Source of the DNA: Pseudomonas sp. B21-015
Lineage (GTDB): Bacteria; Pseudomonadota; Gammaproteobacteria; Pseudomonadales; Pseudomonadaceae
Direction of reading: 5' to 3'
DNA length: 64,000 bases
Assembly (NCBI RefSeq): GCF_024749285.1
Contig: NZ_CP087196.1
Coordinates: 496,001-560,000, forward strand
Shown: positions 9,848 through 33,078 of the stretch, in pieces
How the letters are laid out: each line of letters begins with the position of its first letter
Numbering within the stretch: position 1 is the first letter of the stretch
Notes under the pieces: model-generated
Told to the model about the DNA's origin: nothing
Database searches by the model: none
What the model saw: only the letters and a program-made list of their open reading frames with translations
Position numbers and translations under genes: made by a program

Positions 9848-11407
<1,560 letters not shown>

Positions 11408-31103: not shown

Positions 31104-32137
31104 TCAGGCGTTCAGTGCGTCTGGCCCTGCTTCATACTGCGTATGGTGAGTGGCTATCGCCCAAGCAATACGCGCCAACTTGTTCGCCAAGGCACAGGCC
31201 ACCACGTTCGAGTGTCGCCGTCCAAGCAACGAGCGCACCCAGTCAGCCAAAAACCCTTTTTGTTGCTCCAGTCTCTGTAGGTAGACCCGGGCGCACTGGA
31301 CCAACAATCCAACAATCGCCTGAGGTTTTTGTCACCGCGCTTGCTAATACCAAGCAGGTTGGCTCGACCACCCGTACTGTATTGCCTGGGCTCCAGCCCC
31401 ACAAAGGCGGCAAAGTTGCGGCTGCACTTGTACTGCCGACCATCGCCCATTTCGACAGCCAGCAGGCTGGCGGTGATCGGGCCGACGCACGGCAGGCTCA
31501 GCAAACGACAGCCCAGATCATCGTCGGCCAGCTGGCTTGCCAGCTCCTTATCCAGTCCCTTGATCTGCTCGTCCAGGTAGACGAAATGATCGTGCAGGCG
31601 TTGCAACAACACCGTGAGCCGAACGGGCAACTCATGCTCGGCCAGAACATCCGCCAAGCGCTTCATGATCGCTAGTCCCGTGGGCAGGCTGATACCGAAT
31701 TCCAGCAGGAAACCATGCATTTGATTAGCGGTTTTGGTGCGATCACGCACCAGCGATTCGCGCATTCGGTGTAGGACGGAAAGCGTCTGCTAGGCCTCGG
31801 TCTTGGGCGAGACAAAATGCATTGATGGCCGTGAGGCAGCCTCACAAACCGCTTCGGCATCTATGAAGTCGTTCTTGTTGCCTTTGACGAAGGGGCGAAC
31901 GAATTGCGGGGAAATCAGCTTGGTTTCATGCCCCATAGCCATCAGTTGGCGAGTGACAAAGTGCGCGCTGGCACAGGCCTCCATCGCTACAGTACAGGCC
32001 GGATGAGTGCCGAAGAACTGCATCATTTGTTGTCGTGAGAGCTGCTTGCGAAATACCTCTCGGCCCGATTTATCCTGGCCGTGTAGATGAAAACTGTGTT
32101 TGCCGAGATCGATACCGATCAGCGCTGAGTCGCTCAT
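31104..32137 (-). pseudogene. IS110-family transposase, broken by an amber codon and an 8-bp duplication
   Basis: Read from ATG 32137 the frame shows the DEDD nuclease start IGIDLGKHSFHLHGQ, then VAMEACASAHF and DFIDAEAV. It is interrupted by TAG at 31792-31790 (PKTEA-stop-QTLSVLHRMRESL), with the same frame continuing. The C-terminal Ser domain follows (PCVGPITASLLAVEMGDG, RGDKNLRRLL). At 31301-31316 the plus strand has CCAACAAT twice in tandem; removing one copy restores the normal C terminus (VQCARVYLQRLEQQKGF and on to 31104). The transposase is therefore doubly disabled, unless the stop is read through. Confidence 0.88.
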
Positions 32138-32194
32138 GATGATGGCCTCCGAAAACAAAACACCCTGCGAAAGCGTAGCCCTCGCAGGGTGTGG
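31104..32194 (-). mobile_element. IS110-family insertion sequence remnant (ends not resolved)
   Basis: This covers the inactivated transposase and the hairpin CACCCTGCG / CGCAGGGTG at 32161-32191 upstream of it. IS110 elements lack clear terminal inverted repeats, so the exact ends could not be set; they may extend left to about 31040. Confidence 0.75.
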
Positions 32195-32210
32195 GGGTGA
32201 CCATCTCATT

Positions 32211-32234
32211 AACCCGCAGAAATGCGGGTTTTTT
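32211..32234 (+). terminator. terminator-like hairpin
   Basis: AACCCGC / GCGGGTT followed by TTTT on the plus strand. It lies just past the stop codon of the minus-strand 95-residue gene and may serve that gene through its A-rich side. Confidence 0.5.
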
Positions 32235-32250
32235 AATGGCTGAAATTTGA

Positions 32251-32538
32251 TTACTGACCTTTAGGTGTATCGAACCCACGCTGCTCAATCACCCCAAACA
32301 CATCGGCAATGTCCTGGACCATGATCCGGGCGATGTTGGTGACGGTGTTGATGTCGTTCTCGGCGTAGTCAGGCAGACTGGTGCAGACCATGAGGTTGAG
32401 GTATTTGAGGACGGCGTTGAGGCGTTCGCTGACGCAGTTGTGGAGATCGCGTAGTGAGGCGTCATTGTCGATGAAGAGAATAGGGTGGTCGGTGGCGAAG
32501 TGGGACATGGGGGTGAAGCGGCGGGGCGGGTTGCTCAT
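32251..32538 (-). CDS. small Pseudomonas protein resembling DUF3077/DUF6124
   Basis: A 95-residue soluble protein starting at ATG 32538 (MSNPPRRFTPMSHFATDHPILFIDND). Its helical body (LRDLHNCVSERLNAVLKYLN, DINTVTNIARIMVQDIADVFGVIEQ) resembles the short Pseudomonas-restricted DUF3077/DUF6124 proteins, whose function is unknown. GTACAAGGAAG precedes the start. The same frame stays open through the leader to 32679, adding 47 residues, but the upstream ATG has no ribosome site and its sequence is dictated by RNA hairpins, so I prefer the short form. It lies behind a very structured leader. Confidence 0.55.
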   Translation of the reverse strand: MSNPPRRFTPMSHFATDHPILFIDNDASLRDLHNCVSERLNAVLKYLNLMVCTSLPDYAENDINTVTNIARIMVQDIADVFGVIEQRGFDTPKGQ

Positions 32539-32790
32539 AAGTAAATCTTCCTTGTACTCAAAAAGAAGAGCTACTGCCGTTCGCTGCGAAACGAATTGGG
32601 TGGTCGCTGTGCGCGGGTTCGCAGACCGAGGTACAAGGAAACCCGGCAGACCCGAAGGTCTCCCACACACAGCCACCATAAAACTGACGATGGGCGCTGA
32701 TGCGCCCGTCGTTGCTCATTATGGTGCTTGGTTACGACTTGTACTGTAGGGCTGCGAAACCCTATCGCCGATTGCTGTCAGCGACGGGAC
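32539..32790 (-). ncRNA. candidate structured cis-regulatory leader RNA
   Basis: About 250 bases, read on the minus strand. The segment complementary to 32631-32640 (TTCCTTGTAC) pairs exactly with the ribosome site GTACAAGGAA (complement of 32548-32557). A third segment GTACAAG (complement of 32738-32744) can compete for it. Between them are GGGCGC-ATCA-GCGCCC, a GACC-UUCG-GGTC tetraloop hairpin (32648-32661), GGTGG/CCACC closing arms (32673-32677 and 32599-32603), and a direct repeat GTTTCGCAGC (complements of 32583-32592 and 32751-32760). It is likely a translational switch. Confidence 0.6.
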
Positions 32791-32792
32791 GA

Positions 32793-32798
32793 ACTATA
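32793..32798 (-). promoter_or_regulatory. possible -10 box for the leader RNA
   Basis: TATAGT on the minus strand about 35 bases before the first leader hairpin. No good -35 box is seen. Confidence 0.3.
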
Positions 32799-32849
32799 AA
32801 GCGGCGACTTTGGTGACCGCAGCCGGGCTGTAGGACGCAACGTGGTCGT

Positions 32850-32983
32850 TGTGGTGAGGGGGGTTGTCCCTGTTCGGTGGTGCAGCCGTCGTAAAACCGG
32901 GCACTGCGGTGTGTCTGAGGAAATTGGGTCGCAGGACTTGGGGCTGCTTCGCAGCCCAACGGGGGGCAAGCCCTCTCACCACA
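32850..32983. repeat. degenerate copy of the 130-bp composite repeat (class III)
   Basis: The ends GTGGTGAGGGGGG / GGCAAGCCCTCTCACCAC and the inner GGGCTGCTTCGCAGCCCAAC match the composite repeats at 45434, 55033 and 60108 with several changes. Confidence 0.75.
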
Positions 32984-33015
32984 ATGGGTGGATTCCTACG
33001 AGGTTTTCGGAGCTG

Positions 33016-33078
33016 AAGATCAAAAGATCGCAGCCTTCGGCAGCTCCTACAGGGCGCGCGAAGGCTGCAATCTTTTAG
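33016..33078. repeat. REP pair, class II
   Basis: AAAAGATCGCAGCCTTCGGC with a shorter inverted copy GCGAAGGCTGCAATCTTTT. Confidence 0.85.

Follow-up and report, generated by a model that had tools for sequence, protein, structure and literature searches.

A predicted chromosomal C4 antisense RNA upstream of a small protein gene, and its repetition in the genome of Pseudomonas sp. B21-015

On the minus strand of the DNA analyzed here (the window, a stretch of 64,000 nucleotides from Pseudomonas sp. B21-015), a 252-base leader lies in front of a gene for a small protein. A sequence-only reading of the window had picked out three leader segments, one of them at the ribosome-binding site (RBS), and had taken them for a translational riboswitch or attenuator that belongs to no named RNA class. 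All the segments that it named were confirmed from the sequence at their places on the minus strand (Table 1). What kind of RNA does this leader encode? If it controls the gene behind it, does it do so from within the messenger or as a separate RNA, and is the arrangement peculiar to this one locus?

RNA family and anatomy of the leader

The central part of the leader scored 76.8 bits with the Rfam model of C4 antisense RNAs (RF01695), whose gathering score is 45; the E-value for the 64 kb searched was 3e-13. An Rfam scan of the 64-kb window gave two matches over threshold, this one and a distant SAH riboswitch. The companion family, c4-a1b1 (RF03163), was matched under permissive settings and below its gathering score, though both a1 and b1 are present. 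The earlier view that a regulatory RNA with alternative pairings can cover the RBS of the small downstream gene was right and agrees with the predicted C4 match; the statement that no named class applies was wrong, since the leader matches RF01695 and, below threshold, RF03163. By these matches the leader is a predicted chromosomal C4 antisense RNA, of a class that already has a name; its setting, much repeated, is new.

Table 1. Features of the C4 unit and its surroundings, numbered from the first base of the window
Feature	Position	Strand	Remarks
SAH riboswitch (RF01057)	11281-11379	minus	67.6 bits
IS110-family transposase, two pieces	31154-32210	minus	PF01548 part 31790-32209, PF02371 part 31154-31765
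Terminator-like stem-loop of the C4 unit	32211-32236	minus	T-run apparently shortened by the adjoining IS110-type insertion
Small protein gene, 95 aa	32251-32538	minus	ATG 32538-32536 (most likely start); no named family found
a2 target, GTACAAGGAA	32548-32557	minus	overlaps the Shine-Dalgarno sequence of the small gene
b2 target, GTTTCGCAGC	32583-32592	minus	one end of the direct repeat; predicted duplex with inner C4 part -13.9 kcal/mol
C4 antisense RNA (RF01695)	32596-32683	minus	full-length match, model positions 1-87
b' antisense segment, TCTGCGAAC	32617-32625	minus	placed by the C4 alignment; inner C4 part predicted to pair with b1 and b2 regions
a' antisense loop, TTCCTTGTAC	32631-32640	minus	exact complement of GTACAAGGAA; predicted duplex of inner C4 part with RBS region (a2) -16.9 kcal/mol
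UUCG-tetraloop hairpin within C4	32648-32661	minus	from sequence, C4 alignment and predicted fold
GGGCGC/GCGCCC hairpin	32692-32707	minus	from sequence; separates a1b1 and C4
a1, GTACAAG	32738-32744	minus	upstream target copy; predicted duplex of a1 region with inner C4 part -14.0 kcal/mol
c4-a1b1-like element (RF03163)	32744-32799	minus	22.9 bits, gathering score 46.7, E 0.0022 (801-base search)
b1, GTTTCGCAGC	32751-32760	minus	upstream copy, within c4-a1b1-like element; predicted duplex with inner C4 part -19.8 kcal/mol
Likely -10 box, TATAGT	32793-32798	minus	read from the sequence
Weak -35 box, CTGCGG	32817-32822	minus	18-base spacer to TATAGT; read from the sequence
Repeats GGCTGCTTCGCAGCC and CAGCCTTCGGCAGCTCCTACAGGG	32840-33060		upstream of the unit; presumably REP-like

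Alignment to the family and the predicted fold give the window C4 an outer stem (the GGTGG/CCACC arms), the UUCG hairpin, a hairpin bearing a' and a single-stranded b', with UUUUAUGG as the 5' end; a GG at C4 positions 7-8 is, by analogy, a putative RNase P site. The three segments first noticed are real and correspond to the a1, a' and a2 of the c4 family, with the direct repeat as b1 and b2. The complementarity by which C4 is recognized is found as well, a' and b' matching the surroundings of the RBS of the gene behind the leader, and the inner part of C4 is predicted to form duplexes with all four target segments. When the 252-base leader was shuffled 1000 times with its dinucleotides kept, 12 of the shuffles had an exact complementary pair of at least 10 bases; the 10-base complement is a modest observation by itself and suggestive alone, and we regard the leader structure as more than chance because of the covariance-model match. 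Within the C4 consensus, both-side changes were seen in 15 of 21 pairs, a pair being counted when one or more of 38 sequences from the same genome showed such a change (the weakest, 39th match was excluded from this alignment). From the same alignment RNAalifold recovered the outer stem and the tetraloop hairpin and missed the a' hairpin.

Could the leader act in cis, with a', a1 and a2 pairing alternately in one mRNA, C4 never released, and a ligand, a protein or a ribosome on the leader deciding the outcome? A single transcript presumably carries all three segments, and their pairings exclude one another. Against this, an 88-nt part of the leader is a well-formed C4 domain with exposed loops, and the C4 class is described as processed and acting on target mRNA in the sRNA account of PMC5320573. 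No Rfam riboswitch match was found at the leader in threshold and permissive scans; a novel aptamer would lie outside Rfam's reach. We consider such a switch improbable, and the layout is better explained by an antisense RNA whose target is present twice than by a ligand-sensing riboswitch or attenuator.

A likely promoter precedes the leader; at the matching position in relatives, for instance L099, the sequence is TTGCAG-N17-TATATT. At the other end, the terminator stems in the relatives shown mostly finish in GCGGGTTTTT-like sequence, and that of the window in GCGGGTTAATG. The IS110 pieces lie directly beside this stem, and the T-run of the relatives is missing in the window. Similarity to many relatives ends sharply at 32211, and often also near 32840 or 33011; the REP-like repeats lengthen some of the alignments. 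A mobile cassette was considered, but its edges are a terminator, a promoter and REP-like repeats, and 14 of 80 related loci have the same alginate-lyase flank as the window. Mobility is not claimed, because divergence of intergenic DNA explains the sharp edges equally well.

The small gene and its relatives

The coding sequence most likely begins at the ATG at 32538. Among the best 120 of 243 homologues, 112 have 93-104 residues, one has 109 and seven have 142-157, and we place the start there because of those 112. The 95-residue protein had no match in Pfam, PHROGs or PADLOC, and the 142-residue frame that contains it had none in NCBIfam. Many of its database homologues (95-97 residues) carry the label fructose-bisphosphate aldolase, which is very likely wrong, the protein being too short.

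Is the leader itself translated? The sequence-only reading had found the frame open throughout the leader, which is correct, and had allowed for a 142-codon gene starting at 32679. The seven longer homologues are in keeping with such a gene, as is a weak resemblance of the first part of the frame to Phage_ASH (13.3 bits, or 16.5 bits for a longer stretch; cut-off 26). That openness is not conserved, however: of the 38 C4 loci of the same genome, 17 have it open, near the figures for the other two frames (13 and 10), as do only 23 of 63 relatives, and the lengths of the 112 homologues agree with the ATG at 32538. We regard a real gene of 142 codons as extremely unlikely. Phage_ASH as a translated C4 was tried separately and dropped (weak matches only, in 3 of 8 sequences, at most 16.5 bits against the cut-off of 26).

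Homologous genes lacking the leader had been named beforehand as evidence against a regulatory RNA. In the best 80 of 168 loci that encode a relative of the window protein, C4 is full in 67, cut by a contig end in one and absent in 12. One of the full copies (L156) abuts a truncated gene. By eye, nine of the 12 C4-less relatives retain an a1b1-like stretch and have a different hairpin where C4 would be, one (L103) retains a1b1 close to the RBS, one (L107) is cut by a contig end, and nothing clear was seen in the last (L154). In the nine (L080, L082, L085, L087, L109, L128, L134, L149 and L152), part of the upstream sequence, for example CTAAAAAGAAGA, is again by eye similar to the complement of the RBS region. 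In these relatives pairing in cis may occur, which is a point in favor of the switch considered above.

The pairing segments vary among the relatives. We found 37 distinct a' segments among 66 loci, and their predicted duplexes gave a mean of -14.18 kcal/mol for cognate against -11.41 kcal/mol for non-cognate pairs (lowest of 10000 permutations, -12.96), with the own target best for 6 of the 37 RNAs. The alginate-lyase flank that marks the chromosomal site of the window is present over its length in 14 of the 80 loci, and in part in a fifteenth (L138); at this site the a' types appear by eye to differ between genomes.

C4 units across the genome and their pairing specificity

The genome of Pseudomonas sp. 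B21-015 has 39 C4 matches, 38 of them over the cut-off, and 14 control genomes have none. A small ORF follows C4 in 38 of the 39 loci; an ATG lies 25-75 nt past C4 in 38 of 39, where chance alone would give about half (starts were chosen by hand among the listed ATGs, one per locus). The genome carries about 38 RNA-gene units, nearly all before small protein genes. The targets comprise 21 DUF6124 proteins, four DUF3077, 11 of the superfamily of the window protein, one BRO-N and one QslA-like protein; in this tally one DUF3077 is the second ORF, and L035, whose frame is split, and L039 were put in the window superfamily by eye. Conversely, by coordinates, 21 of 29 DUF6124 and four of six DUF3077 matches in the genome lie just downstream of a C4, eight and two having none. 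The gene at L076 matches both DUF6124 and DUF3077 and adjoins a PrrF sRNA match.

A c4-a1b1 match (E<=0.001) lies upstream of 32 of the 39 C4 matches, 13 of these over the cut-off. The genome total is 37, so that five stand without C4 (G000:C1 4835437, 1348305, 1227975, 5646436 and 1304396); three of the five precede DUF6124 or DUF3077 genes. In nine C4-less loci that were examined, c4-a1b1 was matched in three, one over the cut-off.

C4 is not confined to this strain. It is present in 110 of 119 Pseudomonas genomes, our own counted, and over the cut-off in 109; among the matches listed, the median is 13 per genome, and 46 genomes have at least 20. Over 54 genomes from the rest of the Pseudomonadaceae the median is two, with at least five in 16. 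Across the phylum, 21 of 150 genomes have C4. Six of these belong to the family, two of the six being Pseudomonas; among the matches listed, the copy number in the remaining 15 is one or two in 12 genomes and 3, 6 and 10 in the other three.

One of the own-genome targets resembles chain E of PDB 4ng2 (E 5.3e-11), an entry that we take to be the QslA-LasR complex. Its Pfam score for QslA was 24.3 against a cut-off of 25 when 130 residues were used as query, and over the cut-off in the genome search. QslA is reported to bind LasR (PMC5767178). Matches to the QslA family occur in 30 of 148 genomes of the Pseudomonadaceae and, taking one locus per genome, C4 lies upstream at 25 of the 30 loci. The distance from C4 to the QslA domain in these 25 is 118-779 nt (407-437 nt in 15), and in 23 of them the first ORF past C4 is, by eye, a short peptide of 22-58 residues. 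In the genus of genome G358, C4 was found at 16 of 18 fetched loci, several of them the same places as in the set of 30 (the QslA loci are L003 and L175-L222, and the two sets overlap). The QslA-like frame follows C4 directly in L192 and L200. In L192 and L206 the protein encoded directly past C4 is closely related to the solved QslA chain; the closest relative compared (L192/L205) scored 97.6 bits.

The BRO-N target matches anti-repressor families of PHROGs (130 residues as query), and the target at L171, outside the family, starts by eye like a phage antirepressor. A tiny first ORF of 52-57 residues, for example MHALNPSKIRAAAHRAMALAALHANSSLATRLSRYN, occurs in 18 of the 46 loci with C4 taken from other genomes (L040-L043, L053, L056, L057, L059, L060, L064, L067, L159, L161-L163, L165, L166 and L170); one of these peptides had no NCBIfam, PHROGs or Pfam family. 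That these targets are phage genes was considered and rejected, as one DUF6124 protein, the window protein and one DUF3077 protein match 1, 1 and 0 of 50,697 phage records. Among viral contigs, 72 stretches matched a pattern, and in all of them relatives of the window family are absent; the DUF3077 protein has one match among 72,556 plasmid records.

Does each C4 RNA recognize its own neighbor? The a' segments of the 38 own-genome RNAs are all different. Paired with their own RBS, they gave a mean of -14.24 kcal/mol against -9.00 kcal/mol for permuted partners (z -13.1; none of 10000 permutations went below -10.73), these duplex energies ignoring the folding of each partner. A preference was also found for the own upstream a1 region (z -8.4), and none for a control stretch within the ORF, at 60-90 nt (z 0.0; each of these tests with n = 38). 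In an independent set, made up of the top-scoring C4 from other genomes, z was -15.7 (41 of 46 loci), and -14.0 (29 loci) once duplicates and one wrongly cut row had been removed. The single best partner was the own target for only 12 of 38 RNAs in the own genome and for 16 of the 29 RNAs in this other set. The matched letters of a' and a2 suggest that each unit is largely self-specific. Cross-talk is possible, because the exact run is shorter than seven bases in 19 of the 38 cognate pairs and reaches at least seven in 28 of 1406 non-cognate pairs.

Those non-cognate runs raise the question of whether the C4 RNAs mainly hit genes of other units, or invading phages, as a network in trans or a phage defence. 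The five c4-a1b1 matches among 37 that stand without an adjoining C4 would suit such a role, and incoming phages or bacterial transcripts were proposed as targets in Acinetobacter baumannii (PMC5320573). The strong average preference for cognate targets in both sets speaks against it, as does the lack of a PADLOC defence family for the four proteins tested, and we consider a mainly trans-acting role unlikely.

Proposed action and known C4 systems

We think it very probable that the leader is a chromosomal C4 antisense unit, in which C4 is released, pairs through a'/a2 and b'/b2 and blocks the translation of its own downstream gene. The RNA family, the anatomy, the cognate complementarity, the coevolution of the segments and the genome-wide repetition are what the sequence analysis shows. 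Transcription would begin shortly before the a1b1 element and continue through C4 into the small gene as one RNA, from which C4, folded and about 80 bases long, would be cut, presumably by RNase P. The a' loop would then pair with a2 at the RBS, and b' with b2, on the mRNA of the same gene, and so repress it. The upstream a1b1 copy would be able to pair with the same C4 loops and may delay or tune C4.

C4 in this genome seems to be a control module that recurs on the chromosome, its copies differing in specificity and each matched to its target. It offers a way into the regulation of DUF6124, DUF3077 and the window family, all without known function, and it predicts antisense control of QslA-type quorum-sensing antiactivators. 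Natural near-orthogonal antisense pairs of this kind should be useful for studies of RNA-RNA specificity. More tentatively, Pseudomonas chromosomes could hold tens of near-orthogonal C4/small-protein modules derived from phage immunity, whose proteins might be anti-regulators that bind transcription factors and silence them: the BRO-N protein in the manner of an antirepressor, and the QslA homologues by sequestering regulators of the LuxR type. The same might extend to DUF6124, DUF3077 and the window family. The a'/RBS pairs would then diversify like keys and locks, so that similar genes could be switched singly. Among titles and abstract openings of open-licence papers, we found none that describes an array of C4 units in Pseudomonas, the pairing with targets or a control of qslA by C4.

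The best-known C4 is a single phage RNA that guards a single antirepressor operon. Another phage-related RNA, isrK (RF01394), which we take to be linked to the Gifsy-1 antirepressor, gave a weak match overlapping the stretch upstream of the window C4 (16.9 bits, gathering score 50). It adjoins C4 in Burkholderia cenocepacia, as described in PMC4603805; the match in the window is below threshold, and a relation of isrK to the C4 unit is unsupported.

In phages P1 and P7, c4 is cut by RNase P from a common transcript, at the GG in the outer stem, and pairs with the RBS of the gene (PMC5320573, PMC12197685, PMC8198154). The window unit resembles this c4 (RF01695 with RF03163), as far as described there, in its fold, UUCG hairpin, variable a' loop, b' and a1b1-like upstream copy, and in having its target at the RBS of the downstream gene. 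In the window a' covers the Shine-Dalgarno sequence and b' pairs upstream of it, whereas the wording in PMC5320573 is the opposite. Unlike that of P1 and P7, our unit is chromosomal, with no phage gene recognized beside it (the neighbors tested were the two IS110 pieces and one alginate lyase); its target is a 95-residue protein and not icd/ant, and about 38 units with different a' segments share one genome. The phage immI operon (c4-icd-ant) was rejected as a description of the locus, the downstream protein having no PHROGs family and one unannotated match among the phage records.

The table of Weinberg et al. (2010) lists c4 antisense RNA in 'Proteobacteria, phages' (PMC2864571), and the same study is quoted for C4 in Pseudomonadales (PMC5320573); unlike the present analysis, its entry for c4 gives no Pseudomonas copy number, target family or specificity test. 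Another close parallel is the group 1 sRNAs of A. baumannii AB5075, 21 C4-like RNAs with variable a' loops on one chromosome, expressed and apparently processed at GGW (PMC5320573). In the account of that group no downstream targets were assigned, whereas here each RNA is matched to its neighbor gene, which offers a testable answer to the question left by A. baumannii, namely what the targets of chromosomal C4 RNAs are.
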